64,000 bases of DNA from Siphonodentalium dalli (taxonomy: Eukaryota; Mollusca; Scaphopoda; Gadilida; Siphonodentaliidae), in NCBI GenBank assembly GCA_032622095.1, contig CP136069.1, forward strand, positions 5,382,976 through 5,446,975, given 5' to 3'. Made by a program: the position numbers and the translations under genes. The notes beneath the pieces are model-generated. The model saw only the letters and a program-made list of their open reading frames with translations, was not told the origin of the DNA and did no database searches. Below are positions 3,603 to 60,200 of this stretch, one piece after another (the first letter of the stretch is position 1; each line of letters begins with the position of its first letter).

Positions 3603-3604
3603 AA

Positions 3605-4126
3605 TTTTAGGATCACATGTTATAATGGAGATGTGTAAATTCATAGGACATTTAGGATCACATGTTATAATGGAGATGTGTAACTGTAGGACATTTAGGA
3701 TCACATGTTATAATGGAGATGTGTAGGACATTTAGGATCACATGTTATAATGGAGATGTGTAAATTCATAGGACATTTAGGATCACATGTTATAATGGAG
3801 ATGTGTAAATTCATAGGACATTTAGGATCACATGTTATAATGGAGATGTGTAAAGGCACTGTAGGACATTTAGGATCACATGTTATAATGGAGATGTGTA
3901 GGACATTTAGGATCACATGTTATAATGGAGATGTGTAGGACATTTAGGATCACATGTTATAATGGAGATGTGTGGGACATTTAGGATCACATGTTATAAT
4001 GGAGATGTGTGGGACATTTAGGATCACATGTTATAATGGAGATGTGTGGGACATTTAGGATCACATGTTATAATGGAGATGTGTGGGACATTTAGGATCA
4101 CGTGTTATAATGGACATGTGTAAATT
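3605..4126. repeat. minisatellite, 37/45-bp units
   Basis: About a dozen copies of a unit containing GGACATTTAGGATCACATG followed by TTATAATGGAGATGTGTA. Longer units carry an extra AATTCATA. Short open frames on both strands follow from the repetition and are not taken as genes. Confidence 0.85.
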
Positions 4127-4562: not shown

Positions 4563-4589
4563 TATACATGTATGCATAACATAGTTCCC

Positions 4590-7500: not shown

Positions 7501-10500
7501 TCTGTTATTAGTCAAGGTAAGATATTAGAATCCATGCTTACGATATGCACTCCACATTATCTGTCTGTTATTAGTCAAGGTAAGATATTATAATCCATGC
7601 TTACGATATGCACTCCACATTATCTGACTGTTATTAGTCAAGGTAAGATATTAGAATCCATGCTTACGATATGCACTCCACATTATCTGACTGTTATTAG
7701 TCAAGGTAAGATATTAGAATCCATGCTTACGATATGCACTCCACATTATCTGTCTGTTATTAGTCAAGGGAAGATATTATAATCCATGCTTACGATATGC
7801 ACTCCACATTATCTGTCTGTTATTAGTCAAGGTAAGATATTAGAATCCATGCTTACGATATGCACTCCACATTATCTGTCTGTTATTAGTCAAGGGAAGA
7901 TATTATAATCCATGCTTACGATATGCACTCCACATTATCTGTCTGTTATTAGTCAAGGGAAGATATTATAATCCATGCTTACGATATGCACTCCACATTA
8001 TCTGTCTGTTATTAGTCAAGGTAAGATATTAGAATCCATGCTTACGATATGCACTCCACATTATCTGTCTGTTATTAGTCAAGGGAAGATATTATAATCC
8101 ATGCTTACGATATGCACTCCACATTATCTGTCTGTTATTAGTCAAGGGAAGATATTAGAATCCATGCTTACGATATGCACTCCACATTATCTGTCTGTTA
8201 TTAGTCAAGGTAAGATATTAGAATCCATGCTTACGATATGCACTCCACATTATCTGTCTGTTACTAGTCAAGGTAAGATATTAGAATCCATGCTTACGAT
8301 ATGCACTCCACATTATCTGTCTGTTATTAGTCAAGGGAAGATATTATAATCCATGCTTACGATATGCACTCCACATTATCTGTCTGTTATTAGTCAAGGG
8401 AAGATATTATAATCCATGCTTACGATATGCACTCCACATTATCTGTCTGTTATTAGTCAAGGTAAGATATTAGAATCCATGCTTACGATATGCACTCCAC
8501 ATTATCTGTCTGTTATTAGTCAAGGGAAGATATTAGAATCCATGCTTACGATATGCACTCCACATTATCTGTCTGTTATTAGTCAAGGGAAGATATTAGA
8601 ATCCATGCTTACGATATGCACTCCACATTATCTGTCTGTTACTAGTCAAGGTAAGATATTAGAATCCATGCTTACGATATGCACTCCACATTATCTGTCT
8701 GTTACTAGTCAAGGGAAGATATTATAATCCATGCTTACGATATGCACTCCACATTATCTGTCTGTTATTAGTCAAGGGAAGATATTAGAATCCATGCTTA
8801 CGATATGCACTCCACATTATCTGTCTGTTACTAGTCAAGGGAAGATATTAGAATCCATGCTTACGATATGCACTCCACATTATCTGTCTGTTATTAGTCA
8901 AGGGAAGATATTAGAATCCATGCTTACGATATGCACTCCACATTATCTGTCTGTTATTAGTCAAGGGAAGATATTAGAATCCATGCTTACGATATGCACT
9001 CCACATTATCTGTCTGTTATTAGTCAAGGGAAGATATTAGAATCCATGCTTACGATATGCACTCCACATTATCTGTCTGTTATTAGTCAAGGGAAGATAT
9101 TAGAATCCATGCTTACGATATGCACTCCACATTATCTGTCTGTTATTAGTCAAGGGAAGATATTAGAATCCATGCTTACGATATGCACTCCACATTATCT
9201 GTCTGTTATTAGTCAAGGGAAGATATTAGAATCCATGCTTACGATATGCACTCCACATTATCTGTCTGTTATTAGTCAAGGGAAGATATTATAATCCATG
9301 CTTACGATATGCACTCCACATTATCTGACTGTTATTAGTCAAGGTAAGATATTAGAATCCATGCTTACGATATGCACTCCACATTATCTGTCTGTTATTA
9401 GTCAAGGGAAGATATTAGAATCCATGCTTACGATATGCACTCCACATTATCTGTCTGTTATTAGTCAAGGGAAGATATTAGAATCCATGCTTACGATATG
9501 CACTCCACATTATCTGTCTGTTATTAGTCAAGGGAAGATATTAGAATCCATGCTTACGATATGCACTCCACATTATCTGTCTGTTATTAGTCAAGGGAAG
9601 ATATTAGAATCCATGCTTACGATATGCACTCCACATTATCTGTCTGTTATTAGTCAAGGGAAGATATTAGAATCCATGCTTACGATATGCACTCCACATT
9701 ATCTGTCTGTTATTAGTCAAGGGAAGATATTAGAATCCATGCTTACGATATGCACTCCACATTATCTGTCTGTTATTAGTCAAGGGAAGATATTAGAATC
9801 CATGCTTACGATATGCACTCCACATTATCTGTCTGTTATTAGTCAAGGGAAGATATTAGAATCCATGCTTACGATATGCACTCCACATTATCTGTCTGTT
9901 ATTAGTCAAGGGAAGATATTAGAATCCATGCTTACGATATGCACTCCACATTATCTGTCTGTTACTAGTCAAGGGAAGATATTAGAATCCATGCTTACGA
10001 TATGCACTCCACATTATCTGTCTGTTATTAGTCAAGGGAAGATATTAGAATCCATGCTTACGATATGCACTCCACATTATCTGTCTGTTATTAGTCAAGG
10101 GAAGATATTAGAATCCATGCTTACGATATGCACTCCACATTATCTGTCTGTTATTAGTCAAGGGAAGATATTAGAATCCATGCTTACGATATGCACTCCA
10201 CATTATCTGTCTGTTACTAGTCAAGGTAAGATATTAGAATCCATGCTTACGATATGCACTCCACATTATCTGTCTGTTACTAGTCAAGGGAAGATATTAT
10301 AATCCATGCTTACGATATGCACTCCACATTATCTGTCTGTTATTAGTCAAGGGAAGATATTAGAATCCATGCTTACGATATGCACTCCACATTATCTGTC
10401 TGTTATTAGTCAAGGGAAGATATTAGAATCCATGCTTACGATATGCACTCCACATTATCTGTCTGTTACTAGTCAAGGTAAGATATTATAATCCATGCTT

Positions 10501-13158
10501 ACGATATGCACTCCACATTATCTGTCTGTTATTAGTCAAGGGAAGATATTAGAATCCATGCTTACGATATGCACTCCACATTATCTGTCTGTTATTAGTC
10601 AAGGGAAGATATTAGAATCCATGCTTACGATATGCACTCCACATTATCTGTCTGTTATTAGTCAAGGGAAGATATTAGAATCCATGCTTACGATATGCAC
10701 TCCACATTATCTGTCTGTTATTAGTCAAGGGAAGATATTAGAATCCATGCTTACGATATGCACTCCACATTATCTGTCTGTTATTAGTCAAGGGAAGATA
10801 TTAGAATCCATGCTTACGATATGCACTCCACATTATCTGTCTGTTATTAGTCAAGGGAAGATATTAGAATCCATGCTTACGATATGCACTCCACATTATC
10901 TGTCTGTTATTAGTCAAGGGAAGATATTAGAATCCATGCTTACGATATGCACTCCACATTATCTGTCTGTTATTAGTCAAGGGAAGATATTAGAATCCAT
11001 GCTTACGATATGCACTCCACATTATCTGTCTGTTATTAGTCAAGGGAAGATATTAGAATCCATGCTTACGATATGCACTCCACATTATCTGTCTGTTATT
11101 AGTCAAGGGAAGATATTATAATCCATGCTTACGATATGCACTCCACATTATCTGACTGTTATTAGTCAAGGTAAGATATTAGAATCCATGCTTACGATAT
11201 GCACTCCACATTATCTGTCTGTTATTAGTCAAGGGAAGATATTAGAATCCATGCTTACGATATGCACTCCACATTATCTGTCTGTTATTAGTCAAGGGAA
11301 GATATTAGAATCCATGCTTACGATATGCACTCCACATTATCTGTCTGTTATTAGTCAAGGGAAGATATTAGAATCCATGCTTACGATATGCACTCCACAT
11401 TATCTGTCTGTTATTAGTCAAGGGAAGATATTAGAATCCATGCTTACGATATGCACTCCACATTATCTGTCTGTTATTAGTCAAGGGAAGATATTAGAAT
11501 CCATGCTTACGATATGCACTCCACATTATCTGTCTGTTATTAGTCAAGGGAAGATATTAGAATCCATGCTTACGATATGCACTCCACATTATCTGTCTGT
11601 TACTAGTCAAGGGAAGATATTAGAATCCATGCTTACGATATGCACTCCACATTATCTGTCTGTTATTAGTCAAGGGAAGATATTAGAATCCATGCTTACG
11701 ATATGCACTCCACATTATCTGTCTGTTATTAGTCAAGGGAAGATATTAGAATCCATGCTTACGATATGCACTCCACATTATCTGTCTGTTATTAGTCAAG
11801 GGAAGATATTAGAATCCATGCTTACGATATGCACTCCACATTATCTGTCTGTTATTAGTCAAGGGAAGATATTAGAATCCATGCTTACGATATGCACTCC
11901 ACATTATCTGTCTGTTACTAGTCAAGGTAAGATATTAGAATCCATGCTTACGATATGCACTCCACATTATCTGTCTGTTACTAGTCAAGGGAAGATATTA
12001 TAATCCATGCTTACGATATGCACTCCACATTATCTGTCTGTTATTAGTCAAGGGAAGATATTAGAATCCATGCTTACGATATGCACTCCACATTATCTGT
12101 CTGTTATTAGTCAAGGGAAGATATTAGAATCCATGCTTACGATATGCACTCCACATTATCTGTCTGTTACTAGTCAAGGTAAGATATTATAATCCATGCT
12201 TACGATATGCACTCCACATTATCTGTCTGTTATTAGTCAAGGGAAGATATTAGAATCCATGCTTACGATATGCACTCCACATTATCTGTCTGTTATTAGT
12301 CAAGGGAAGATATTAGAATCCATGCTTACGATATGCACTCCACATTATCTGTCTGTTATTAGTCAAGGGAAGATATTAGAATCCATGCTTACGATATGCA
12401 CTCCACATTATCTGTCTGTTATTAGTCAAGGGAAGATATTAGAATCCATGCTTACGATATGCACTCCACATTATCTGTCTGTTATTAGTCAAGGGAAGAT
12501 ATTAGAATCCATGCTTACGATATGCACTCCACATTATCTGTCTGTTATTAGTCAAGGGAAGATATTAGAATCCATGCTTACGATATGCACTCCACATTAT
12601 CTGTCTGTTATTAGTCAAGGGAAGATATTAGAATCCATGCTTACGATATGCACTCCACATTATCTGTCTGTTACTAGTCAAGGGAAGATATTAGAATCCA
12701 TGCTTACGATATGCACTCCACATTATCTGTCTGTTATTAGTCAAGGGAAGATATTAGAATCCATGCTTACGATATGCACTCCACATTATCTGTCTGTTAT
12801 TAGTCAAGGGAAGATATTAGAATCCATGCTTACGATATGCACTCCACATTATCTGTCTGTTATTAGTCAAGGGAAGATATTAGAATCCATGCTTACGATA
12901 TGCACTCCACATTATCTGTCTGTTATTAGTCAAGGGAAGATATTAGAATCCATGCTTACGATATGCACTCCACATTATCTGTCTGTTACTAGTCAAGGTA
13001 AGATATTAGAATCCATGCTTACGATATGCACTCCACATTATCTGTCTGTTACTAGTCAAGGGAAGATATTATAATCCATGCTTACGATATGCACTCCACA
13101 TTATCTGTCTGTTATTAGTCAAGGGAAGATATTATAATCCATGCTTACGATATGCACA
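4590..13158. repeat. 63-bp satellite array, about 136 copies
   Basis: The unit starts ATGCTTACGATATGC and ends TATTAGAATCC. Unit starts at 4636, 5203, 6400 and 13141 differ by exact multiples of 63, so I see no indel across the array. Five diagnostic sites vary: TCTGTCTG/TCTGACTG, TTATTAG/TTACTAG, CAAGGTAAG/CAAGGGAAG, GATATT/GAAATT and TAGAA/TATAA. Runs of identical variant order (11125-12003 versus 12196-13074, 17 units apart, differing only in the first unit) show higher-order duplication. Because 63 is a multiple of three the array reads as long open frames, but it has no gene context, so I do not call it coding. Many units contain a strong 5' splice-site consensus, AAG/GTAAGA. Confidence 0.95.
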
Positions 13159-27200: not shown

Positions 27201-30200
27201 GGATCTTTCATGTCCGACAATCTCTGGTGATCACCAGAGTCAATGTGTTCATTAACCTGTGAACCATATTGACTCAATGTAGTTAATAGGTTTATGAATA
27301 CATTGACTCGGGACCGTGATTATCGTAATAATAATTGTAATATTTATTTTCATTAATAGGTGCTCCCCAACCGGCTTCTTCAAGTGACGCACAGTTACCA
27401 GTCCTACTCTCCGAGTCACGTCAACAAAACACCGAAGTCCAGATAGCTGTCAGTAAAGTCTCAGATAAGCTTGAAAAAGTGTTAGAAAAGGTACTTCTCT
27501 CAAATTGTTGTCATCGTAGCAGGTATGCTGTACAGTAATGTTCTAATTAATCGACTCCTTAACCACAGCAGAATTATGGGTAACTTTTCAGGATTTAGTA
27601 GGAAATATAGCTTGTTATGGGTAACTTTTCAGGATTTAGTCGGAAAAACAAGCCGCATTTCCGAATAAATCTTGAAAATTTACCCATAATTCTGCTGTGG
27701 TTAATGAGTCGATTATTTAGGGCATTACTGTACTTTATGACGCAGACCAAGTCTTCTTGGTCCACGACAGCTTGATATATCGGTTGGGTTTATTCTGTTT
27801 TTGGACTGAGTCCCATCCCATTACTCTTCTTTATTAAACTCCTATGCGCGATTTCCATTGAAAACACCGTTAATTAAAAATGGTAATGTCACTAGTGAAT
27901 TATGTCATTTCTCGTTACGTCATTGACCTTGACTGAAATTTCCATGGTTAATCTTCATCTACATCGCAACTTTCATGCATTAATTCTGTGTGTTTTAATC
28001 ATAATTGGTGAACCAAATTGATGCAGAAGTGTAATAAATAGAGTAATCAATTAGTTCCGAGAGTTACATTAAATAATTCACTTAAGGTGATAGATGTTTA
28101 GGTAAGAAACTTGTGCGCCAACGCCAATTAAAAAACTGACTAAAATTTTTGAACAGATTGAAATGTCACCAGAAAATGTCATCAGTTGCTAGCGTTCGAT
28201 TTATGACTCCCTAACGGTTGCCATATTTATCCTTTTCACAATGAACTTGCAAACTGTGTTTACTGTCCTCCATGCGAAAGTATCATGTATCTGGACGTGT
28301 AAGTTTGTGGAGTGGAGTGATTTCACAGTTAAATTCTGATATTGCCTATCGGCTGAAATGATGATAAATCCTATAAACCTAACCTATACTTTTGTTGTTA
28401 TTATTTACACAAGTGGCTGTAAGATGTTAAACCCTATAAACCTAACCTATACTTTGTTGTTATTTACAGATTGAGACTCTGAGCGCTCAGAACACGAATG
28501 CCTTAACGTTGCACAGTCTTATACCCGGTATGGAAAGTACTGTGTTGTTACATAACATACAGAGGATAGTTACAGAAAACGAACGGCTGAAAAAAGATCT
28601 ATTCGAAAAAAGCGGAAAGGTGGAGACACTCAATGACAGGATTTCTGAACTTATTCAGAAGAATCAAAGGTAGATAATCCTATTGAATAAGAATCAATGG
28701 TAGATAATTCTATTGAATAAGAATCAAAGGTAGATAATTCTATTCAAGAAGAATCAAAGGTAGATAACACTACTTATTCAGAATAATCAAAAGTAGATAA
28801 TCCTATTCAAGAAGAATCAATTGTAGATAACTCTACTTATTCAGAATAATCAAAAGTAGATAATCCTATTCAAGAAGAATCAATTGTAGATAACTCTACT
28901 TATTCAGAATAATCAAAGGTAGATAATCCTATTCAAGAAGAATCAATGTAGTTAACTCTACTTATGCAGAAGAATCAAAGGTAGATAACTCTTCTCATTC
29001 AGAAAAATTAAAGTAGATAATAAACAGTCACAAGGGAATAACAGATCAACAACAGATCAATAACAGATCAATAACAGATCAACAACAAACAAGGGAATAA
29101 CAGATCAACAACAAACAAGGGAATAACAGATCAACAACAAATTCTATTTTTTTATAGAAATAGTTGAACACATATTTGAATACCTTATTCATATTTAAAT
29201 TGGCGCAGTACTATTTTTTCGTGCACCCATTGTTGCGCGAATATAAAACTGAGTGAAAAATAGTATGATTCATGAGTTTATACCAGACCAAAAGGGCAAC
29301 AGGATGACATGTTGCATACATTACGTAATGTTGGACTGAATAACCAATTAGGGCATTATATATGTGACCCGCCTTATCAAATCCAGTTGAAAGTCGGGAT
29401 TTTTTTTACCCTGTGCCAATGCATTCTCTTATATATGCGAGTCGACCATAGGTCGCCTCGCGTATATAAGAGAATGCATTGGCCTAACAATTTTTCTTAC
29501 AATTTTTAGGACATAAAATAAAAAACATCCATTACCCTGCAGGGAGCCCCACACATATATAGAAGCATATAGAAGAGTGTCGTCTGCTCATGTTTGTCTG
29601 GGGCTCTGTATGGGTGAAATTATATAATTGTTAAAGAATACAAGAAAAAATTATTAAAATTGTAAATAATTGTTAGGCCAATGCATTCTCTTATATATGC
29701 GAGGCGACCTATGGTCGACTCGCATATATAAGAGAATGCATTGGCACAGGGTAAAAAAATATCGACTTACGACTGGATTTGATATTGCGGGTCATATATT
29801 TACTTTTGGGGAAGTAATCTTAATACCATTATTTACATGTTTTTCGATAAATAATGATCAAATATTTGATGTTGCAATGCTTTAAGAAACACACATTGCA
29901 CACTGAATGAAAGCATGTTGTCATTTCAAGCAACAACCCTGGAGTGACACCTTTGAAATAATGGTCTGCGTTAACTAAAATTATGCCAACTCAATTATAT
30001 AGAATACACACATCAATGTGCTATGCGGATGTGGTTTTAATTTCATTTCAACAATGTCCATAACTGTATAATTATCAGAATGATTACCGGAGCATATAAG
30101 AACCCATATTCGCAACAAACTGATGATGCAGTCGTGTTCTATATATACTCGATGTACATATATCCGTCTTGATGATCTTTAATATAGAAATGTATTCCAC

Positions 30201-33200
30201 AGAACAATTAAGAACATAAAACGGCATCAGTTAAAAGGCTTTTATGAAAATATGTTTGTACCTTTGAGTGCCAGGTCCGATTTTTTGTATCAACCCATAT
30301 ACCCTGTGCCAATGCATTCTCTAATATATGCGAGTCGACCATAGGTCGCCTCGCATATATAAGAGAATGCATTGGCCTAACAATTTTTTACAATTTTAAT
30401 AATTTTTTCTTGTATTCTTTAACAATTTTATAATTTCACCCATACAGAGCCCCAGACAAACATGAGCAGACGACACTCTTCTATATGCTTCTATATATGT
30501 GTGGGGCTCCCTGCAGGGTAGATAGATAGATATACAGTATGGTGCTCAGAATTCAAAACTGAGCGAAAAATAGTCCTCCATTCAATATTTCAGTGTAGTA
30601 GAACAGAGCCAGTCTAAAAATAGTCCTCCATTCAATATTTCAGTGTAGTAGAACAGAGCCAGTCTTTAATGGAACAAAAGAACACAGGAATTAACACCTC
30701 GAAATCCAATATGCAGTCGAAGGTTCTCGATCTACAGCAAGAAAAGGTTTGTCTATCCTTCCATCAGTCCAAGGTTCTCGATCTACAGCAAGAAAAGGTT
30801 TGTATGCAGTCCAAGGTTCTCGATCTACAGCAAGAAAAGGTCAGTCCAAGGTTCTCGATCTACAGCAAGAAAAGGTTTGTTTATCCTTCCATCAGAGCTT
30901 CTCCCTATTCCAAGGAAAGGTTTGTTTATCTCTTTCATGATGGGAGCTGTGCTTGTGCAGCATTAAATGTCCTATGACAGTGCATTCTCTTATATATGCG
31001 AGTGTCCCATAGGTTTACAGTATCAATGTAAATATTGTTCGACCAATGTATTCTCTTACATATGTGAAGCTCCCTATGGGAGACTCGCATATATAAGAGA
31101 ATGCATTGGCACAGGGTTTTCGCAAAATTTCAGGAAGATCCAGTCATGGAAGGGTTCAACCATTGGCTATGCTATTGTGTTTATATATGTTGTAAATATC
31201 AGTTTTACACCCTGTGCCAATGCATTCTCTTATATATGCGAGTCGACCGTAGGTCGCCTCGCATATATAAGAGAATGCATTGGCCTAACAATTTTTTATC
31301 ATTTTTTTTAAATAAATGTTTCTTACAATTTTTAGGACATAAAATAAAAAACATCCATTACCCTGCAGGGAGCCCCACACATATATAGAAGCATATAGAA
31401 GAGTGTCGTCTGCTCATGTTTGTCTGGGGCTCTGTATGGGTAAAATTATAAAATTGTTAAAGAATACAAGAAAATATTATTAAAATTGTAAAAATTTGTT
31501 AGGCCAATGCATTCTCTTATATATGCGAGGCTCCCTATGGGAGATTCGCATATATAAGAGAATGCATTGGCACAGGGTTAAATGGTCCCCACCCAAACAG
31601 TATATTCTTGTCGGTAAATATCAGTTTTACACCCTACTGTGGGTATATATGTTGTAAATATCAGTTTTACACCCTACTGTAGGTATACATTTCTACTGTG
31701 GGTTATCCTCAAAGTTATGGTAAGCGTTGGTGGTGAGTATTGCTGTTAAGATAAGTCACATCCACTAAAACCGCTATAAACAGAAGGAAGTTTATATTAT
31801 AGACAAATTTTTTTCTTATACCAATCATAAATGTAGTGTAAATTTGTATGTTAGTGTCATGTTAGTACTCTGTGTTATGTAAACAAACAGTACATAAAGA
31901 GTGTGCGATTCATTCAAATCATTCAACACTGGGGAGACCCCACTAATTGAACTTTGAAATACGACAAGTTGTTTACAACATACTGATATAGCGCTCGCTA
32001 ATCTTCGCCTCTCAAGATTTCGGTGTTGAATGGGTCTCCAATAATCACTCTCCTAAAAAATTGCCACAGTGTTGAGTGTTTTGCTTATCGTTCACTGGTT
32101 ACCTGCTGCTGTATATAAACAAACACTCGGCTCACACAAATTGTATTATTTTGATAATATCGCATTCTTACTATCATAATGCTTTACTATTACAGTGAAA
32201 CGTCTACATACCGGACCCTCTACAATCCGAATCCCTCCTCAATCCGAATGAATTGTCTGGTCCCGAATTAACCCAAGTGCATTCTCACTAAAAATTACCT
32301 CTAAAATCCGGAACCTCTATATTCCGAATACCGGACAGGTTTGTTAGTCCATAATTAAGCAAACACTTGATTATTACCTCTGAATACCGGACGAGATCGG
32401 ACGAGATGAGATCGGTCAAGACGAGTGTGCGTAATGGTATAGTGATTACGTACTCTAGTATAAGCGGACCGTTTAATTAGCGTTCTTTTGTTCGGCGTAT
32501 GCTTTGAACCGGATTGTAACAACAGGAGTCTGATTAGATATCTATGCTCATTTCACACATTGAGTGAACAATGGTGACTTCACAGATCGAGAATTAGAGC
32601 ACTGACATATTGTTTTTGCAACAGTTATTGTGTTGAGTTAATTGGACTCTGTTTTTACAACCATTGTCGATCGCCGCTCACATCGCAAAACCCACAGACA
32701 ATGCCGAGACGACTATTAAGAAGATGACGCAATCCATAACAGAAGCGACGATCGTCTGTTGTATTTGAACAGTTTCTATATGGGGTTGTTTGGGTAGCCT
32801 TTATTGTCGCGTTGGGCGACTTCTTTTTGCAAGAATACCGGCACTAATCGAAATTATTTTTCTGTGTGGGCGCTGGGTTTCCCCGGCGATAAAAATAATA
32901 TCTGGGAAAAACAGAGTTGTTCTGAAAACTAGCACCGGAATATGGCGGAACGTAATAGATATGTTTAGATCGGGGTTAATGTCGTGGCATTGTCTGAAAA
33001 TCTTATCAAATGAATTTTGTTATGTAAAACTTGTGTTTATCAGCCATAGGTGTAGTATTTTTCTCCATTCCTCACAGTGGATTGCGAGACTAATAACAGG
33101 CAGTGTCATACTTCCGCATTTCGTTTCGGTTTCGGTTGTACGATGTAGGTTTTGAAAATTCCGGTAATGTTGTCAGCACGTAAATCATCCGATAGACTAT

Positions 33201-36200
33201 TAAGTTTTGGCAATACATACAGAGAAATAATATGTCAGGTGCCATTTTCAAATGTCCGGCACCGCTCATCTGGTACCTGACATTTTGTCCTGCACTCAAA
33301 TAAAAATTATACTCAGGCTTGGTTCTCCTAATTATTCAATAAATTCTCAGTAATAAATAATGCAGTCTTGGTCATTCTTGGTATTAAACGGCGGCAGTAT
33401 ATCACCGATGGTGACACGGTTTTCTATAAACCGAACACCGCTCTAAACCGAACGGAAGGGCCGGTCCGAAGGGTGTTCTAAACCAAACAGAAGGGCCGGT
33501 CCGAAGGGTGTTCTAAACCGAACGGAAGGGCCGGTCTGAAGGGTGTTCTAAACCGAACGGAAGGGCCGGTCCGAAGGGTGTTCTAAACCAAACAGAAGGG
33601 CCGGTCCGAAGGGTGTTCTAAACCGAACAGAAGGGCCGGTCCGAAGGGTGTTCTAAACCGAACGGAAGGGCCGGTCCGAAGGGTGTTCTAAACCAAACGG
33701 AAGGGCCGGTCCGAAGGGTGTTCTAAACCGAACAGAAGGGCCGGTCCGAAGGGTGTTCGGTTTAGAGCGGTTTTACTGTAATATATTCTTGGGGAAATGT
33801 TCATAATTTGGTAACTGGTTATAACCTATAACGTAGGCCATCCGTACGTTCAATCACTTGATATATTTCTTAGTTTTATAATTTGAATCGTGACGCCATC
33901 GTTACCATACTGATATACTTATTAATGCTACGAAACTTCCCATTAAAAAGTTGTATTTACCATTCAAAACTGATATTAACGATATTGTCTTGATCTTGAC
34001 CTATCGCCGGTGTTGTATTCACATCTTCATAAATGTGTCGTAGATCACCTGGGTCACCCTGCAAATTATCACCCTCCGCCCCTTGCCCATGATGACAGAC
34101 CATTTTTCCCTCTTGTAGATTGACCTGACCTGAGACATCTCAACACCCTCCACTCTGTTGAGAGCTCTGTCTTTGTTGTAGGTTGACCTGATGTCCCAGC
34201 TAAGTAACACTACATCACAGATCAGCACGTTACAGCTGGAGCTTACAGAATATAGGAAGAAGGAACTCGAACTCAACAAGCAGCTACAGGAAGTTCACAA
34301 TTCTAGTTCAGACCACAAGGATGAAATTAATACTCTAAAAGTACAGTGCAAAGGTATCGTTCAAATTATTATGGTACTACGGACGAAATTAATACTCTAA
34401 AAGTAAGGTGCAAAGGTATCCTTCAAATTATTATGGTAATACGGACGAAATTAATACTCTAAAAGTAAGGTGCAAAGGTATCCTTCAAATTATTATGGTA
34501 CTACGGACGAAATTAATACTCTAAAAGTAAGGTGCAAAGGTATCCTTCAAATTATTATGGTACTACGGACGAAATTAATACTCTAAAAGTAAGGTGCAAA
34601 GGTATCCTTCAAATTATTATGGTACTACGGACGAAATTAATACTCTAAAAGTAAGGTGCAAAGGTATCGTTCAAATTATTATGGTAATACGGACGAAATT
34701 AATACTCTAAAAGTAAGGTGCAAAGGTATCCTTCAAATTATTATTGTAATATGGATGAAATTAATATCGTTCAAATTATTATGGTACTACGGACGAAATT
34801 AATACTCTAAAAGTAAGGTGCAAAGGTATCCTTCAAATTATTATGGTACTACGGACGAAATTAATACTCTAAAAGTAATGTGCAAAGGTATCCTTCAAAT
34901 TATTATGGTACTACGGACGAAATTAATACTCTAAAAGTAAGGTGCAAAGGTATCCTTCAAATTATTATTGTAATATGGATGAAATTAATATCGTTCAAAT
35001 TATTATGGTACTACGGACGAAATTAATACTCTAAAAGTAAGGTGCAAAGGTATCCTTCAAATTATTATTGTAATATGGATGAAATTAATATCGTTCAAAT
35101 TATTATGGTACTACGGACGAAATTAATACTCTAAAAGTAAGGTGCAAAGGTATCCTTCAAATTATTGTGGTACTATGGACGAAATTAATACTCTAAAAGT
35201 AAGGTGCAAAGGTATCCTTCAAATTATTATGGTACTACGGACGAAATTAATACTCTAAAAGTAAGGTGCAAAGGTATCCTTCAAATTATTATGGTACTAC
35301 GGACGAAATTAATACTCTAAAAGTAAGGTGCAAAGGTATCCTTCAAATTATTATGGTACTACGGACGAAATTAATACTCTAAAAGTAAGGTGCAAAGGTA
35401 TCCTTCAAATTATTATGGTACTACGGACGAAATTAATACTCTAAAAGTAAGGTGCAAAGGTATCCTTCAAATTATTATGGTACTACGGACGAAATTAATA
35501 CTCTAAAAGTAAGGTGCAAAGGTATCGTTCAAATTATTATGGTACTACGGACAAAATTAATACTCTAAAAGTAAGGTGCAAAGGTATCCTTCAAATTATT
35601 ATGGTACTACGGATGAAATTAATACTCTAAAAGTAAGGTGCAAAGGTATCCTTCAAATTATTATGGTACTACGGATGAAATTAATACTCTAAAAGTAAGG
35701 TGCAAAGGTATCCTTCAAATTATTATGGTACTACGGACAAAATTAATACTCTAAAAGTAAGGTGCAAAGGTATCCTTCAAATTATTATTGTAATATGGAT
35801 GAAATTAATATCGTTCAAATTATTATGGTACTATGGATGAAAATAATACTCTAAAAGTAAGGTGCAAAGGTATCCTTCAAATTATTATGGTAATATGGAT
35901 GAAATTAATATCGTTCAAATTATTATGGTACTATGGATGAAAATAATACTCTAAAAGTAAGGTGCAAAGGTATCCTTCAAATTATTATGGTACTACGGAC
36001 GAAATTAATACTCTAAAAGTAAGGTGCAAAGGTATCCTTCAAATTATTATGGTACTACGGACGAAATTAATATCGTTCAAATTATTATGGTACTATGGAT
36101 GAAAATAATACTCTAAAAGTAAGGTGCAAAGGTATCCTTCAAATTATTATTGTAATATGGATGAAATTAATATCGTTCAAATTATTATGGTACTATGGAT

Positions 36201-39200
36201 GAAAATAATACTCTAAAAGTAAGGTGCAAAGGTATCCTTCAAATTATTATTGTAATATGGATGAAATTAATATCGTTCAAATTATTATGGTACTATGGAT
36301 GAAAATAATACTCTAAAAGTAAGGTGCAAAGGTATCCTTCAAATTATTATGGTACTACGGACGAAATTAATACTCTAAAAGTAAGGTGCAAAGGTATCCT
36401 TCAAATTATTATTGTAATATGGATGAAATTAATATCGTTCAAATTATTATGGTACTATGGATGAAAATAATACTCTAAAAGTAAGGTGCAAAGGTATCCT
36501 TCAAATTATTATGGTACTACGGACAAAATTAATACTCTAAAAGTAAGGTGCAAAGGTATCCTTCAAATTATTATGGTACTACGGACGAAATTAATACTCT
36601 AAAAGTAAGGTGCAAAGGTATCCTTCAAATTATTATGGTACTACGGACGAAATTAATACTCTAAAAGTAAGGTGCAAAGGTATCCTTCAAATTATTATTG
36701 TAATATGGATGAAATTAATATCGTTCAAATTATTATGGTACTATGGATGAAAATAATACTCTAAAAGTAAGGTGCAAAGGTATCCTTCAAATTATTATTG
36801 TAATATGGATGAAATTAATATCGTTCAAATTATTATGGTACTATGGATGAAAATAATACTCTAAAAGTAAGGTGCAAAGGTATCCTTCAAATTATTATGG
36901 TAATAAGGATGAAATTAATAATTTGGTTATTATGGGGAGCCATAGGGAGCCTCGCATATAAAAGGGAATACATTGGCCAAACAATATTTACCTTGACCTT
37001 GTAAGCCAGTGCATTTTCTTTTACATGTTAGGCTCCCTATTGGAGACTCGCATATATAAGAGAATGCACTGGTACAGGATATTTAATGCTGCTCCAGTGC
37101 AGCTCCCATCATGAAAGTGTTAACAAACAAGTCTCAAAGTAGATCTATAATATATTCTTAATCTATCTATAATATTCTTAATTTATCTATAATATTCTTA
37201 ATCTATCTATAATATTCTTAAGTTATTTATATATTCTTAATTTATCTATAATATTCTTTATTTATATATAATAGTCTTAATTTATCTATAATATTCTTAA
37301 TCTATCTATAATATTTTTAATTTATCTATAATATTCTTAATTTATTTATAATATTCTTAATTTATCAATAATAATCTCAGTTTATAATATTTTTAATTTA
37401 TCTATAATGTTCTTAATTTATCTATAATATTCTCAATTTATCTGTAATATTCTCCATGTATTCACGTAACAGATGGTGAGAATTGGATTAATATTCTTAA
37501 TTTATTAAATGTAACAGATGGTGAGAATCGGATATTAATATTCTTAATTTATTAAATGTAACAGATGGTGCGAATCGGATTAATATTCTTAATTTATTAA
37601 ACGTAACAGATAGTGAGAATTGGATTAATATTCTAAATTTATTAAATGTAACAGATGGTGCGAATCGGATTAATATTCTTAATTTATTAAACGTAACAGA
37701 TGGTGAGAATTGGATTAATATTCTTAATTTATTAAATGTAACAGATGGTGAGAATCGGATTAATATTCTTAATTTATCTGTAATATTCTCCATGTATTCA
37801 CGGATTAATATTCTTAATTTATTCATGTAACAGATGGTGAGAATCGGATAGAAGAGCTGTCAAGGCAAGTGAAGGAAGAAAAACAACTGAGAAGGAATAC
37901 AGAGAACAGTATGACCAGTGTACACGATGAACTCGGTGATCTTAAAGCAGCAAGGGAATCATTAGAAAAGGTGAGTCATGAATTGGGAGATCTCAAAGCG
38001 GTGAGAGAATTCTTTGAAAAGTTTTGATTTACATACATAATAAACTCAAGGTACATTAGCCCTTTCATGAAGGGAGCTGCGTTGGTGCAACATTAAAGAC
38101 CCTGTGCCAATGCAGTCTGTTATATATGTGAGTCGACCATAGGTCACCTCGCCTATATAAGAGAATCCATTGGCAGAAATTTTTTTTATGAATTTTTCTT
38201 ACAGGAATCACTGAACTAAATGGTTTCCCATAGGCGACAGTGTTAACCCTTTGAACCCTGACGCCCTACCACGACCGACACCCTGACCCTGGGCTCCTCG
38301 TGGGATTTTCCTTTAAATTTTATAGTGTCTTGTTGGATGATGTTGGTTATGTTTAATTTGTGACACAGGTATGAAACTTTACAGGGTCCCCCCCATTGAT
38401 CACTGATCATTATAAAATCGGAAGACTTTGCCACGCGGCAGCGTCTTGGTAACGGTTGCTAGGCAACTACCCGAATTGACTGGAAAAGGCAATTATAGCA
38501 TGGTATGTCATAACTCAATGCCAGTGATTGTGTTTTGATGACGATAATACCCTAATGTGAAATTTGAGATATATCTGACAAGAATTTAAGAGAGATCGAA
38601 TGAAATTAATTATTTAAGGTAGCAACGGTTGCTAATCAAGTACCACAAATGAACGGATGACACCACTGCACTAACCATTAAGTGGTAGTGTTCCCTTAAT
38701 TTATACAATATCTAGTCGCATAATGCTGTATATGTTCAATGGGGGCACCTGTTTGAAACTGTGCATACAAATGTATGTTATGCATGGACCATTCTATGAT
38801 CATTAAAATATAAGGACACTTTGCCACCCAATCTCTCCTTAATAACGGTTACCAGACAACTACCCGGCATTAGCAAGAAACTGCAATTATGATGCAGCTA
38901 TATGTCCTATATATAACACCACATTTCGCTTAAAACGCATGTTTTTGTCATTTACAACCTATGTTCTGCGCATGCGCATATATTCCTACCCGATACTATA
39001 GCAGGTAGACATTCCATATACACACCCTGACCACCGCCGATGCCTATGGGGCCATTTAAACATATATTAGTGGGTATGTCGTGCATAAGTACGCTATAAA
39101 CCATTTATTTCGCACTTCGCTGCTCTGCGCATGCGCCAAGAAATCAACTTGATATGCGATCGAGGCCCTTCACCATATAAATATAATTTGAACAGGCTTT

Positions 39201-42200
39201 TTATATTTTATATATATAACTAGAGTTTAGACGTCGATTTGTTATTGAATCGCATAGCTATAAACTATAAACACGTGGCGGTCGTTATAATGGCCGGTTC
39301 AGCGGCCGGTATACCGGCCGCTAGGGTATATGGAGGTTCACGCAGCGGCCGGTATTCCGGCAGCTGGGGTTCAAAGGGTTAACTTTTCGGCCAAATTCAC
39401 TGAATTGAAGCCTGCAGGCCATACCAGTGATGTTTACCTAGCTAGATTGACACCAGTTGATCACGAAAATGCATGAAAAATCATAGGTCATGTGTTTACT
39501 TTTTTAAATAAATCCCCAAGTGTACGACAGGGCTACCACACAGCCAAATTTGATCTGGAAAAACCCAGACCTACAGCAGCTAGTTAAATAAATTTCCCGC
39601 TCACAAAAATCCATTCCCCCATTCATTCACCAGTTTAAATTATTTGGATATGATGTTCAAATCAAATAATGTCATCCTTTAATAACGTGTCGCATGTATC
39701 AGGTGAAGGTCATTCTTCAGTTACCTTCACCTTTAGCATTCCACGGTGTACTCGCTCCCCGACTCTAGAACACATTTAGCTCCCTGATTCCTATATATAT
39801 GTATATGTGTAAATCACAGCGTTTCTTATAGTATTTTATCCAAATATAGACCTTACTGAAACCAAAAATGGATTATATCGGGCAGTAGTGGTTTATTTTT
39901 TCAATATGAGGCATCATGAAAATTAGTGTCAATCCTCAAAATAAAGCCAAATTTTTTTGATTTTTTTTCAATTTTACTAGCTGATGCATCTCATATAACT
40001 GAAGTATGCACTTTTATTCCACACCCATTGACGTGAGTCACATGTATTCAACGGAATCCCAGCCAATGAATAAATATTAGTGTATACCTCTAGTGGAATA
40101 CAAGCCGGAACTATTCTTGTTGACGTTGTCGCCAAGAAAGATGACGTACATTACGTCGATCACCCGCTTCCGGTGATTCCCCCCATAATTACTGGTTATT
40201 TGTCAGACTTAAATCACAATAAAGGTAGCTATAGTAACAATGAATGTGACATTCATGGATTTAACTTATCTGACTGAACGGTGTAGAATAAATACAGAAC
40301 ACAACGTGCATCATAATCTCGAATCTTTTATCGAACTCGTTGCGGACGGCGCAAAGTTATATTTCGCTCGAGCTACGCTCTCGCGAAATATATCCTTGCG
40401 CCATCCGCAACTCATTCGATAAAAGATTCTCGATTAAGATGCGCGTTGTGTTCTGTCTATATATACCATAATATTACTAAATTGAAGAGGAAATGTTAAT
40501 ATACATTTTGAGAGGGATATCTTGTCCAATTTTAACCCTTTTCATGCAGAATTTCGCAATTTATAATAAACATTTACCAAAATTAACAGAAAATTTAAAT
40601 TAAAAATACTTTAATAGCAATATAAAGCAACCATAAGTCAATTGAAATATCTATTTCAGAATTTGAGTGACAGAAGAAAGAAAGCTGCAGACGACAGGAT
40701 TAAGATGGAAGAAGAAATGGAGGAATTTAAAGCAAATTATGAGGTGAGAAACAAGTTTTATATAAATTATGAGGTGAGAAACACGTTTTATATAAATTAG
40801 GAGGTCAGAAACAAGTTTTATATAATTTAGTAGGTCAGAAACAAGTTTAATATAAATTATGAGGTCAGAAATAAGTTTTATATAAATTATGAGGTCAGAA
40901 ATAAGTTTTATATAAATTATGAGGTCAGAAACAAGTATTATAAATTATGAGGTCAGAAATAAGTTTAATATAAATTATGAGGTCAGAAATAAGTTTTATA
41001 TAAATTATGAGGTGAAAAATAAGTTTTATATAAATTATGAGGTGAAAAATAAGTTTTATATAAATTATGAGGTGAAAAATAAGTTTTATATAAATTATGA
41101 GGTCAGAAATAAGTTTTATATAAATTATGAGGTGAAAAATAAGTTTTATATAAATTATGAGGTCAGAAATAAGTTTTATATAAATTCTGAGGTCAGAAAT
41201 AAGTTTTATATAAATTATGAGGTGAAAAATAAGTTTTATATAAATTATGAGGTCAGAAATAAGTTTTATATAAACTTTGAGGTCAGAAATAAGTTTTATA
41301 TAAATTACGAGGTCAGAAATAAGTTTTATATAAATTATGAGGTCAGAAATAAGTGTTATATAAATTGTGAGGTCAGAAATAAGTTCTATATTAATTGGAC
41401 AGTAGACCATAAAAAACAACCCATCATCTTACATATAGATACCACTTTCTTCATATCTGTAGTATACAAGTCTGAGTTTAGTGTGCCTGTCATTCGCAGA
41501 ATGAGGTCCCCAGCGGGTGAATTTATTGATGCTATCTTGCATAGCGCGCTAGCATCACCAAATTCACCCTCTTGGAACCTCATTCTGCATGGCCTCATCT
41601 GATATTGGAGACATAGACTCAGATTGAGGTTCCCAAATGGTGAATATTGTGATGTACACCCATTGGGAACCTCGATTATGCATGTGTCTTCTGCCAATTT
41701 TGGGATATAAAGACACTAAAGAAAATGAAATAGAATGTGAAGAAGTTTCTATAGAAATTGACAATATAGAAACTTTCCAGAGAAGATGAGGCCTAAGCAG
41801 AATGAGGTCCCCAGAGGGTGAATATAGCGATGCTAGCCCGCTATGAGTGATAGCATCACTAAATTTACCTTCTGGGGACCTCATTTTGCAAATGATAATC
41901 AGGCTTTATAGTATACAGTAATGCTCTTAAGTAATCGACTCATTAACCACAGCAGAATTATGGGTAACTTTTCAGGATTTAGTCGGAAATATGGCTTGTT
42001 GCCATTCATCGGAAAGCTCTCACTGAGAGCTTTCCGATGAATGCCAACAAGCCATATTTCCGACTAAATGCTGAAAAATTACCCATAATTCTGCTGTGGT
42101 TAAGAAGTCGATTACTTGGAGCATTACTGTATGTCCAAGAATTTCAACAGTTAACACCAGTTTGAAGTGTGGGAAAACAGGAGGTATTATGCTCTGTGTC

Positions 42201-54200: not shown

Positions 54201-57200
54201 AGCATGGCATGTCCACAGAGAGAACGAAGCATGGTATGTCCACAAAGAGAACGAAGAGTATGGCATGTCCACAAAGAGAACGAAGAGTATGGCATGTCCA
54301 CAAAGAGAACGAAGCGTATTTATTGAGGTTCCATGTCCACAAAGAGAACGAAGAGTATGGCATGTCCACAAAGAGAACGAAGCGTATTTATTGAGGTTCC
54401 AAATTTAAATCTAGGTTTTTTTTACATGGAAGTTGAATTTGATTTCGGATTGAACAATATGTTCACTGTGGACCAAGTCTTCTCTGTCCACAACAGCTTG
54501 GGATATCGGCAAAGCTCAAAATATTTTTTATTCTACTGACTGTCAAAATGACAGGCTCCAAATGGATGGTTTTGGTCATTTAAAAATGGTGCCTGTCAAT
54601 TTTGAGATGTACTGAATGAGACCGTATTTAAATTTCCAATCAACTTATTATTCGTCAGTGAGTTAGTGAGCGTCCAATCGCCACCCAGAAAAAACCCAAG
54701 TTATTTTTGTTTTCAAAAGTTCAAAAATGTTTTGTTGATTAATACATACAAATGCACTTCACAAACGAGATAATTGCATTAACTCTGAATTGATCTGAAA
54801 TTAAAAAAGGACTATTTTTTACTTTCAATGTCAAATTTGGCCAGTAGTTGCTCCTTGGACCCAAACAGATACAGATTGTTTAAAAATTTGCATTGGACAA
54901 AATGTCTGACAGATACAGAAGTGCACTGGACATAAGCTATTTTTCGTCGGACAATGACCTTGACCGGCCTCTTAATTTGAGCCTTGGATATCTGTTGGGA
55001 TGACGCTGTTTTTGGACCGAGTACTGCCCTGCTCTTCTATAAGGGACATTCTGCCCAGAATGATGGGCGGGAGTTATATTGCTTACATGTCGTCGGATTA
55101 GGGCAGCCTTTCCGAAGCATGATATATCAATCATGCATATATCAGAGGTCTGTTAAATGTCAAAGTAACGAGATATATAAGTAAACAAAGCCTAGTTTTC
55201 CAGAGAATTTAGATTTTTCTCGCCATTAGATGGAAACAATACATGAAACGATCGTATCATCACTATACCTTTTTCTATCATGGTAGATGATATATCATTT
55301 TGAAGAAAGATTAATCGCAGACATATAAGGTGATCAAACACATATCCCAAGCTGTTACAGCATCAACCCAACCGATATCCCAAGCTGTTACAGCATCATC
55401 CCAACCGATATCCCAAACTGTTACCGATATCCCAAGCTGTTACAGCATCAACCCAACCGATATCCCAAGCTGTTACAGCATCAACCCAACCGATATCCCA
55501 AGCTGTTACAGCATCAACCCAACCAATATCCCAAGCTGTTACTGATATCCCAAGCTGTTACAGCATCAACCCAATCAATATCCCAAGCGACAATTGTTGA
55601 GGTTGACAGCCATAAACATCTGGGGCTCACTTTCGACAACACGGGGTCATGGGGTATCCATATCAGATCTATGCTTGACAAAGCATGGAGTCGAGTAAAT
55701 CTAGTACGTAAGCACAGATACAGGCTAAGCAGAGTAACGCTTGAAAAAATACATTATACATTTATCCGACCAATACTGGAACACGCCTCCCCCGTTTGGG
55801 ATAACTGCCCTGATTATCTTAGTGATGACATTGAAAAGGTTCAGTATGAAATGGCCCGAATAGTAACAGGCACAACCATCAGTACGAGTAACGCGCGTCT
55901 TTTATCAGAAACTGGCTGGGAACTCCTCTCCTCACGTCGTAGAAAACACAAACTATGCCAGTTTTTTAAAATGATACGCGGAACTGCCCCGTCAATTTTA
56001 AGAAATTATGTTCGACCAATCCAGGCAAATAACTCTAGATATAACTTCAGATTTGAACATATAAGACTACCCTCGAATATTAACTATGACTATTATATGG
56101 ATTCGTTCTTACCAGCGGCAATTACTGAATGGAACAAACTGCCGGACTCTACAAAGGGTAGCAGAACAATCGACGAATTCAAAAAGGAACTCAACAATGA
56201 CAATATGCGTCCACCTGCCCATTTTTATCATAGTAAATGCCGTAAATCACACATCCTTCATACCCGGTTAAGACTGAACTGTAGCCACCTGAGTGGAGAC
56301 CTGACAGATAATCATGTTAAAAATTTCCCCTTTTGTCTATGTGGGGAATTTGAGACAACTTACCACTATCTCTTTGAATGTACACTTTATCAAGAGCCCA
56401 GAAGAGAACTATATGACTCCCTACCCAATGTTGCCTTATCTGAAAATACTCTACTGTGGGGATCAAGGGAGCTTAGCCTTCGCGGAAAACAAAGAAATAT
56501 TTAATGCATCATGATATTCCCCACTGTTTTATGCCTAATTACAAATTGACAAATGCAACCAATAACTATCTGGGCTTGACCCCCCTCCCATGGCGCCTGA
56601 CGCACGAAGAATACTATAGACGAGCATCATTACTAATACACAATAAATCAACTCAACTATTGAAAACTACCCCCTCTCCCAGCATCTCATCACTTTTATC
56701 TCTCTATCTCTCTCGCTCTCTCTTTCTCTCTCTCGTCCTCTCTACCTCTTTCTCGTTCACAATTTCTCTCCCTGCTTCTAACGACATCATCATTACTATA
56801 ATTATGATATTTTCATTCCTTCCCGTCCGACCCCCTCTCTACACTTAATGAAGAGCGGGGCGCGAAACAAAAGGGGAGCAAACTTAATAAAAGCCCTTGG
56901 GCTTGTTGTTTAATCCCCTTTCCAATCAATCGAATTTATATTATTCTATTCTCCTGTAAAATGTCTGTTAAATGTTTATATATGTTATTATTTTGATTGG
57001 AATAAAATATGTTTACACTAACCCAACCGATATCCCAAGCTGTTACAGCATCAACCCAACCGATATCCCAAGCTGTTACAGCATCAACCCAACCGATATC
57101 CCAAGCTGTTACAGCATCATCCCAACCGATATCCCAAGCTGTTACAGCATCAACCCAACCGATATCCCAAGCTGTTACAGCATCAACCCAACCGATATCC

Positions 57201-60200
57201 CAAGCTGTTACAGCATCATCCCAACTGATATCCCAAGCTGTTACAGCATCAACCCAACTGATATCCCAAGCTGTTACAGCATCATCCCAACCGATATCCC
57301 AAGCTGTTACAGCATCAAACCAACCGATATCCCAAGCTGTTACAGCATCAACCCAACCGATATCCCAAGCTGTTATAGCATCAACCCAACCGTTATCCCA
57401 AGCTGTTACAGCATCAACCCAACCGATATCCCAAGTTGTTACAGCATCAACCCAACCGATATCCCAAGCTGTTACAGCATCAACCCAACCGATATCCCAA
57501 GCTGTTACAGCATCAACCCAACCGATATCCCAAGCTGTTACAGCATCATCCCAACCGATATCCCAAGCTGTTACAGCATCAACCCAACCGATATCCCAAG
57601 CTGTTACAGCATCAACCCAACCGATATCCCAAGCTGTTACAGCATCAACCCAACCGATATCCCAAACTGTTACAGCATCAACCCAACCGATATCCCAAGC
57701 TGTTACAGCATCAACCAACCGATATCCCAAGCTGTTACAGCATAAACCCAACCGATATCCCAAGCTGTTACAGCATCAACCCAACCGATATCCCAAGCTG
57801 TTACAGCATCAACCCAAACGATATCCCAAACTGTTACAGCATCAACCCAACCGATATCCCAAGCTGTTACAGCATCAACCAACCGATATCCCAAGCTGTT
57901 ACAGCATCAACCCAACCGATATCCCAAGCTGTTACAGCATCAACCCAACCGATATCCCAAGCTGTTACAGCATCAACCCAACCAATATCCCAAGCTGTTA
58001 CAGCATCAACCCAACCGATATCCCAAGTTGTTACAGCATCAACCCAACCGATATCCCAAGCTGTTACAGCATCATCCCAACCGATATCCCAAGCTGTTAC
58101 AGCATCAACCCAACCGATATCCCAAGCTGTTACAGCATCAACCCAACCGATATCCCAAGCTGTTACAGCATCATCCCAACTGATATCCCAAGCTGTTACA
58201 GCATCAACCCAACTGATATTCCAAGCTGTTACAGCATCATCCCAACCGATATCCCAAGCTGTTACAGCATCAACCCAACCGATATCCCAAGTTGTTACAG
58301 CATCATCCCAACCGATATCCCAAGTTGTTGTGGACTGAGAAGACTTGATCTTCTGGTTAATATGTCAAGAGATGGGTCCAAATTAGTATAATACACCTAT
58401 GAAGACATGGTTAATGATGGAAAACCCTGTGCAAACCCTAACAAATTTTATATTATTTTTTATAATTGTTAAAAATTATAAGAAAATAGAAAAAATAATA
58501 AAAAATTGTCACAGAAAAGTAAGAAAGAAATTATAAAAATTGATAAAGAATGTAAGAAAAAACTATATATAAACACATGTTTTTTCATACATTCATACAA
58601 TTTTTATCATTTGTATCATTATTTCTTACATTCTTTAACAATTTTTTATTAGTTTTTTAGCTCACCTGAGACGAAGTCTCCGGTGGAGCTATAGTCATCA
58701 CTCCTCGTCCGTCGTCCGTCCGTCTGACCGTCCGTCCGTCCGTCCGTCCGTCAACAATCATCTTCTCGTCCCGAACCGTAAGACTTAACGTGTTCATATT
58801 TGGTGTGGATGTTCCCTAGGTGAATCACATTCAGATTTGTTCAAATGAGGTCACTGGGTGGAATAGTTGTGAAAGCAGGGCCATAACTCTATTCCTCCAT
58901 AGTAATTCTTAGAACGACTTCTTTTACTGAACTATAAGGCCGTATGGATTCATATTTGGTGTGGATGTTCCCTAGTTGACTCACATTCAGATTTGTTAAA
59001 ATGAGGTCACCAGGTTGATTAGTTGAGAAACCAGGGCCATAACTCTATTCCTCCATAGTAATTCTTAGAATGACTTCTTCTTTTGAACCATTTGACCGAT
59101 TTAGCTTACATTTGGTATGGAGAGTCCTTGTGTGACTGGGGTTCAGATTTGTTCAAATGGGGTCACTGGGTCAAATAGGGGCAGAGCCAGGGCCCAGGGA
59201 CATAACTCTTAAAAAAAAGTTAATTCAAATCCTTGTTTTAAACTCTTGCCCCCCCCCCCCAACCTCCCCCACCACTGCATGCCCATGCCACCCCACACCA
59301 GAGATCCCTGCAAGGTTTACCCCATTAAAAGCCTTACACTTTAGTTATATGACATGCCAGGAACTGACCAGCCTTAATTCTCACAGTGCTCACAGCTGTG
59401 TGTCCAGTCATTATAAAGTAATTAACTTTTATCTCAATATCCACAGTTATCAGGGTAATAGAGAAAGATGTCTGTGAATGAAATTTAATCCTATGTGTTT
59501 ACAGCAATCTCAAATACAACTCTAACTGTTTGACAGTGTACACATTTTATAATAGCATTAGTATTAACCATTTCATTACCAGAGCTATGCTGGTACAGCA
59601 ATAAAGACCCTGCACCAGTGTATTATCCTATATATAAGAGAATACACTGGGGTTCAAGATCAAGGAAATATTGTTAGGCCAATATGGTCAGACATCCAAA
59701 TAAATCACACATGTCCTACCGGTATTCTCGCAGGGATGTCCCCACATATGTTTGGGGAGGGGGCAAATTTCTCAGATTTGTTCATTGAGATGTAATTGTT
59801 TTTCCAAAACCAATTACATATACTAAAATAAAATGAATATAAAATAATAGACCATTGATCAAGAGAAATGAGCTCCTAGTTTTAATATTTGTCCAATATT
59901 TATTATTTTATAACAAAGTACTAGTATCATGCCAGTGCATTGTCTTATATATGTGAGTGTCCCATAGGTAGCCTCACCTAAGAGAATGCACTAGCTTTCA
60001 AGGTTAAGGAAATATTGTTAGGCAAATGTAGACAAGCATCCAATAAATCACAGATGTCCTATTCTTGCAGGGATGTCCCCATGGGTTGAGGGGTGGAATT
60101 AGCAGATTTGTTCAATGAGATGTAATTTGTTTTCTCAAAATTAATTATATAGACTAAAATGAATATAAAATAGTAAACTACTTAATTTTTTAACCCCCAG

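Follow-up and report, generated by a model that had tools for sequence, protein, structure and literature searches.

Minisatellite-like tandem duplications that span an exon–intron boundary, and so carry many copies of a splice signal, are known from amphioxus as mirages (PMC3087553, PMC3902484). These two papers place them in Adh3, the globin genes BflGb6 and BflGb9, troponin C and PGBD5, with units ranging from 10–72 bp in Adh3 to 150–160 bp in the globins; they report or suggest that regular splicing is undisturbed, and they describe length differences for Adh3 and for one globin locus. Here we describe structures of this type in an FKBP15 gene of the scaphopod mollusc Siphonodentalium dalli and at sampled splice junctions elsewhere in its genome. 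The stretch under study, hereafter the window, comprises 64,000 nucleotides of contig CP136069.1 (assembly GCA_032622095.1, positions 5,382,976 to 5,446,975, forward strand). The founding mirage paper is reportedly that of Canestro in 2002.

The structures fit those parts of the mirage description that were tested, and their kind is already known from amphioxus. They are best read as mirage-type minisatellites, that is, local tandem duplications, mostly of 30–100 bp, whose unit holds an exon end together with its splice site. As in amphioxus, the unit spans the exon–intron boundary, here at 6 of 20 junctions in the window and, of 368 sampled junctions, at 17 with an ungapped detector or 16 with Tandem Repeats Finder (TRF). 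Acceptors and donors are both affected, and the copies keep the AG or GT signals (here in 17 of 20 cases). The amphioxus accounts are gene-by-gene reports in lancelets, whereas the present case concerns a mollusc genome in which 16–17 of 368 junctions are affected and an excess at the borders has been measured. Among the 60 of 100 hits listed for a muscle-myosin exon of this genome, the highest scores belong to PDB chains 3i5f (140 bits) and 1dfk (133 bits), those of squid and scallop, ahead of vertebrate Myosin-7 chains at 114 bits or less. In the amphioxus papers, reverse transcription PCR (RT-PCR) and instability data exist, whereas our structures are known from the sequence of one assembly. 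What seems new is the frequency (about 4–6% of sampled junctions), the border excess, the youth of the arrays and a host outside the lancelets. None of the first three was found in the literature surveyed, mostly titles and abstract openings. In titles and abstract openings the same structure was not found outside lancelets either, apart from a study of human paralogs (PMC2812944), and the available part of the amphioxus huntingtin paper (PMC2206037) yielded nothing on border repeats.

A first-pass annotation, made from the letters of the window, had assigned exons 5–9 to an FKBP15 gene, and this assignment is borne out. Exon 5 matches PF23649 (Pfam FKBP15) with an E value of 9e-14, exon 7 matches it below the cut-off, and exons 5–13, when joined, read as a single open frame with 0 stops over 420 codons; in the Pfam search, PF23649 was matched by neither exon 10 nor exon 13. 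The FKBP-domain exon sits upstream of the window and two further exons lie downstream of it, in an assembly of 2.2 Gb in nine contigs, each of 190–301 Mb. The five exons concerned are as follows.

28470–28669, + strand: FKBP15 exon 5 (open frame, splice sites, PF23649)
30644–30746, + strand: FKBP15 exon 6 (open frame, splice sites)
34182–34353, + strand: FKBP15 exon 7 (open frame, splice sites; PF23649 weak)
37834–37970, + strand: FKBP15 exon 8 (open frame, splice sites)
40660–40743, + strand: FKBP15 exon 9, acceptor without a copy (open joined frame, splice sites, repeat scan)

The introns of FKBP15 also contain several copies of a short inverted-repeat element (CCAATGCATTCTCTTATATATGCGAG...), which by eye resembles a miniature inverted-repeat transposable element, at about 29428–29760, 30305–30525, 31040–31110, 31215–31580 and 36930–37070.

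The junction set of the window consists of 20 junctions of 10 exons (E1, E3, E4, E5–E9, E10 and E11, where E5–E9 are FKBP15 exons 5–9); a possible exon near 22500 was excluded as uncertain. A direct repeat was scored as strict when it extends from the junction 6 or more bases into both the exon and the intron. Strict repeats are present at 6 of the 20 junctions, every one in exons 5–9: the E5 donor, E6 acceptor, E6 donor, E7 donor, E8 acceptor and E9 donor. They were found at 0 of the 10 junctions of E1, E3, E4, E10 and E11, and repeats of this junction type did not appear in two Markov simulations of 22 kb. Nine of the ten junctions of exons 5–9 had been counted as duplicated in the first-pass annotation. 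Six of these are strict; the E5 acceptor, E7 acceptor and E8 donor are weaker, with a strict score of 0. The E9 acceptor is without any copy in the strict direct-repeat scan, as had been claimed. The repeats at the other nine junctions are listed here.

28360–28402, + strand: weak copy of 28423–28464 by the exon 5 acceptor, confined to the intron side (40 of 42 aligned bases; strict score 0)
28659–28988, + strand: array across the exon 5 donor, units of ~30 and 63 bp, 11 exon bases in the unit (TRF, strict repeat scan)
30566–30665, + strand: 2 x 50-bp duplication across the exon 6 acceptor, 22 exon bases (TRF, 100% match)
30714–30930, + strand: array across the exon 6 donor, 33 exon bases, 4 more donor-like sites within 2 bits (strict repeat scan)
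34113–34128, + strand: weak copy of the exon 7 acceptor, 16 bp long with 1 mismatch (alignment; strict score 0)
34319–36920, + strand: 2.6-kb array across the exon 7 donor that takes in 35 exon bases, with units of 62 and 38 bp (TRF, strict repeat scan)
37445–37849, + strand: array across the exon 8 acceptor, with 9.0 copies of a 45-bp unit, 16 exon bases and, within 2 bits, 7 acceptor-like sites (TRF)
37978–38021, + strand: weak, diverged copy of the 44 bases that end exon 8, lacking the donor GT (33 of 44 identical; strict score 0)
40734–41396, + strand: array across the exon 9 donor, with 22.2 copies of a 30-bp unit and 10 exon bases (TRF, strict repeat scan)

The copies lie adjacent to one another in direct orientation, and the FKBP15 frame stays open. 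At the E5 acceptor the copy ends 5 bases short of the exon and therefore includes no exon base and no AG, while at the E7 acceptor 34113–34128 matches 34176–34191 at 15 of 16 positions, AG and 10 exon bases included. The copy numbers proposed earlier hold, with 22.2 copies at E9, 9.0 at E8 and an array of 2.6 kb at E7 (TRF units of 62 and 38 bp). Downstream of the window, the acceptor of exon 13 (base 3296 of locus L178) lies within a straddling duplication of 156 bp, in which the upstream copy no longer has an AG; no straddling array was found at the junctions of exon 12, at the exon 13 donor or at the FKBP-domain exon.

That the arrays differ in sequence and do not represent one repeat family spreading was also part of the earlier description, and both points agree with our comparison. 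In none of the 15 pairs do the six units share a 9-mer. Both arrays that were searched against the genome, with very common words skipped, proved local: the exon 7 donor array matches its own locus only, and 5 of the 6 matches of the exon 9 donor array lie at its own locus, the sixth being a stretch of 72 bp at 75%. Because the six units lack common 9-mers and both searched arrays are local, the six FKBP15 arrays are separate, local tandem duplications. The same observations led us to reject a dispersed family, and they make it extremely unlikely that an introner-like mobile family has inserted at splice sites, although such a family would produce a recurrent association with them. The related units of introner-like mobile introns are dispersed over many genes, a pattern not seen among the six units or with the two arrays searched here. 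It is very unlikely, too, that the sequence was wrongly duplicated during assembly. Arrays are hard to assemble, and one amphioxus mirage was reportedly rebuilt from traces since the draft seemed misassembled (PMC3087553). However, several of the present arrays contain diverged copies, an artefact has no evident reason to favour exon borders, and the amphioxus structures are reported with haplotype and RT-PCR data (PMC3087553).

TRF arrays straddle 5 of the 20 junctions in the window, compared with 0.5–1.0 expected, in a stretch that was selected for showing this very pattern. The genome sample, picked irrespective of repeats, comprises 197 exons of six protein families and 368 junctions. Its Pfam matches were fetched from myosin (28 of 85), CCT (42 of 53), SNF2 (40 of 73), dynein (56 of 89), UCH (25 of 63) and FKBP_C (6 of 10); stop-free and non-redundant matches were favoured, and zero came from FKBP15. 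A splice-site weight matrix, whose frequencies are generic animal values, called 368 of 394 possible junctions, and 26 were dropped. The candidate exons 3543–3695 and 7074–7175 of locus L180 were left out of the straddling count. In the locus-matched test a junction counts if it lies within the edge unit of an array, and the same rule is applied to intron positions of the same locus. The array is a fair unit of counting because an array that has grown within an intron should not extend across the border.

With this test, the ungapped detector gives 17 straddled junctions against 4.8 expected and TRF gives 16 against 6.4, an excess over all arrays of 3.6 and 2.5, respectively. The effect, which had been described for one gene, is not confined to it. 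It is strongest among arrays of high identity: 11 straddling against 1.2 expected for ungapped arrays of at least 95% identity, and, for TRF, 14 against 2.7 at a match of at least 90 and 7 against 0.8 at a match of at least 95 (ratios in these classes 5.1, 8.5 and 9.4, of which 8.5–9.4 belong to identity of at least 95%). TRF arrays below a match of 90 show no excess (3 against 3.9 expected, 0.8-fold). A bootstrap over 100 gene bins, using near-full-unit matches of identity at least 0.93, gives 13 straddling cases and a ratio of 6.8, with a 95% interval of 3.0–13.5. Cases in an initial count fell on both sides of exons (donors 11 of 174, acceptors 10 of 194). Cruder expectations give ratios of 1.1 (TRF match below 90), 2.3 (TRF period of at least 10) and up to about 20.

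Three side observations come from the Pfam matches. At C6:220294135–220294508 three consecutive partial SNF2-domain matches (profile 4–44, 4–32 and 4–38) probably reflect part of an exon repeated in tandem. A cluster of many similar matches to muscle-type myosin at C4:274.2–275.5 Mb is probably a gene array. Two long CCT/Cpn60 matches, at C8:83763210 and C1:137265288, are stop-free over about 1.2–1.3 kb and may be intronless copies.

We lean towards the view that break repair produces local duplications unusually often at exon borders, that these survive as long as splicing uses the exon-proximal site, and that they disappear while still young. Several observations weigh against it. Base coverage shows no excess: repeats fill 41% of 28–42 kb and 30% of 20–62 kb of the window, and in the genome sample 17 of 298 junctions lie inside repeats, compared with a distance-dependent 6–11% of intron positions. 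When all direct repeats are counted, adjacent or not, exon ends have no denser edges, the last 50 exon bases holding 15 (1.0 per kb) versus 1.2–2.0 per kb more than 50 bases into introns. Plain TRF edge density gives a weak signal, 12 versus 7.3 (P 0.07) or 12 versus 5.8 (P 0.02), and the flanks also hold 13 matches to the exon interior, spread over 6 loci, of which several begin only 5 bases away from the junction. The test stands on 16–17 straddling arrays of one genome under several definitions of straddling, which were tried one after another and on which the ratio depends. In addition, what we say of splicing, mutation rate and loss is inferred from a single assembly.

Such counts are what one would expect if tandem repeats were so abundant that some cover junctions without the borders being special. 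The 6 of 20 junctions in the window agree with the local repeat coverage of 41% and 30%, as do the 17 of 298 junctions with the intron background and the missing edge excess of all direct repeats. Even so, we consider this explanation unlikely. The coverage is dominated by long arrays grown in introns, which by our reasoning are unable to cross a border, whereas counting one event per array gives a 2.5–3.6-fold excess, and 8.5–9.4-fold at high identity. We do not rely on coverage statistics because of this dominance of long intron arrays. Since the excess vanishes with all direct repeats and TRF edges are weak, our claim concerns true tandem duplications and leans on the high-identity classes. 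The earlier proposal that duplication is nucleated at exon–intron borders is partly supported: counted by event, the sample across the genome shows a border excess, most strongly at high identity. It is not supported by base coverage, which is close to the genome-wide comparison of junction overlap with background that had been suggested with it. At locus L179 (C9:5456976–5466975), 86% of 10 kb is young tandem array, mainly a single one of about 6.9 kb.

The identity classes bear on a further explanation, in which the conserved exon copy keeps straddling repeats recognisable for longer than those lying wholly in introns. By reasoning, purifying selection on one copy would slow divergence by up to about twofold. 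This persistence would predict an excess of old arrays, but the opposite is seen with TRF, 3 against 3.9 below a match of 90 and 7 against 0.8 at 95 or above. Two-copy arrays of identity at least 0.93 still number 5 at junctions versus 9 in 166 kb of intron. We regard a bias of this origin as improbable. Because there are many young straddling arrays and no excess of old ones, the data suggest frequent birth and early loss.

The splice-site copies themselves were inspected by reading the sequence of the 21 cases of the initial count, and L021, whose donor was probably miscalled, was omitted from the count of site strength. In 17 of the remaining 20 cases a copy retains a site that scores within 2 bits of the authentic one, so the splicing machinery would have to pick mainly by position. 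Such copies might be retained by selection as useful spare splice sites, for splicing regulation, or as coding additions or new introns. Of six alternative sites tried in FKBP15, two would keep the frame and bring no stop, namely the donor copies 51 bases beyond the exon 6 donor and 30 bases beyond the exon 9 donor, whose use would add residues. Boundary tandem repeats are also reported to create novel introns in human paralogs (PMC2812944). On the other hand, 4 of the 6 sites introduce a stop, old arrays are not in excess, which speaks against their being retained for long, and at the exon 13 acceptor the AG is missing from the upstream copy. Taken together, we give retention by selection slightly less credence even than the persistence bias.

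We also asked whether the splice-site motif is enough. Splice-like sites in introns show no clear excess of straddling arrays (donor-like 4 of 160, 2.5%; acceptor-like 5 of 576, 0.9%), compared with 1.3% of random intron positions and 21 of 368 real junctions (5.7%) under a slightly looser rule. Donor-like sites are at about twice the random rate, from four cases; with acceptor-like sites at 5 of 576, targeting of the motif was rejected as the sole cause. With no clear excess at such intron sites, the motif by itself is hardly a sufficient account of the border excess. In the flanks of 171 exons there are 52 direct matches with the exon's own junction (13 loci), which fits local tandem duplication better than dispersed copying; inverted copying was rejected, with 1 inverted match in the same flanks. 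Arrays wholly within exons number 0 with the strict detector and 1 with TRF, as purging of such arrays would predict. Exons and introns have similar CpG observed/expected values (0.66 and 0.64, respectively), which give no lead to a link with methylation. Donor units seem exon-heavy (10 of 11 donor cases usable, intron part of 2–57 bases), a hand count too weak to lean on.

For the preferred reading, break-repair duplication at exon borders, we propose the following course. The founding duplication would arise by break repair, through fill-in of a staggered break and end joining, and later copies might be added by slippage or unequal exchange. A short duplication that reaches from exon into intron would leave the exon and one splice site intact. 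Provided that the exon-proximal site is used, the extra copies would be removed with the intron and the message would stay normal. Borders would then gain more duplications than introns, or exons in general would, with exon-internal duplications purged, and most straddling arrays would be lost before they diverge.

Small tandem duplications arise from 3' overhang fill-in and end joining by Pol alpha-primase/CST (PMC8355091, abstract). The product, an adjacent, direct and short duplication, is like the present ones and makes this a plausible founding step, whereas no exon-border preference is named in that abstract. In genes of human segmental duplications, tandem repeats at exon–intron boundaries can alter splicing (PMC2812944); that study has the boundary location in common with ours but concerns recent primate paralogs, whereas conserved genes of several families are affected here. 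The Rogers model of intron gain by tandem AG/GT duplication, as discussed in PMC3087553, likewise duplicates a segment with a splice signal. The copies described here differ in lying inside an existing intron, and no new intron was seen, none having been sought.

A broader claim is tentative, and we hold it with less confidence than the reading above: in this lineage exon borders may be a genome-wide hot spot for new 30–100-bp tandem duplications, with the underlying process depending on exon identity or on transcription and splicing and not on the DNA motif of the splice site. On this view the mirages of lancelets would be a single example of something general among metazoans, a process that contributes to the turnover of splice sites and to changes in introns. 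If borders do gain duplications faster than introns, annotated chromosome-scale genomes can be used to test why, from array edges, identity classes and expression. Such a process would also keep producing duplicated splice sites in a way that can be observed, and sites of this sort have been proposed as raw material for intron gain and alternative splicing.

Other tandem arrays lie elsewhere in the window. Its left part contains an 8.6-kb array at 4589–13157, in which a 63-bp unit recurs about 136 times with a match of 98%. Three separate arrays, at 55342–55588, 57020–58329 and 61515–61701, have a common core, GATATCCCAAGCTGTTAC. The first of them is in the same open frame as a stretch at ~55.6–56.5 kb that by eye is reverse transcriptase-like, and the GATATCCCAAGCTGTTAC minisatellite may travel with a retroelement.

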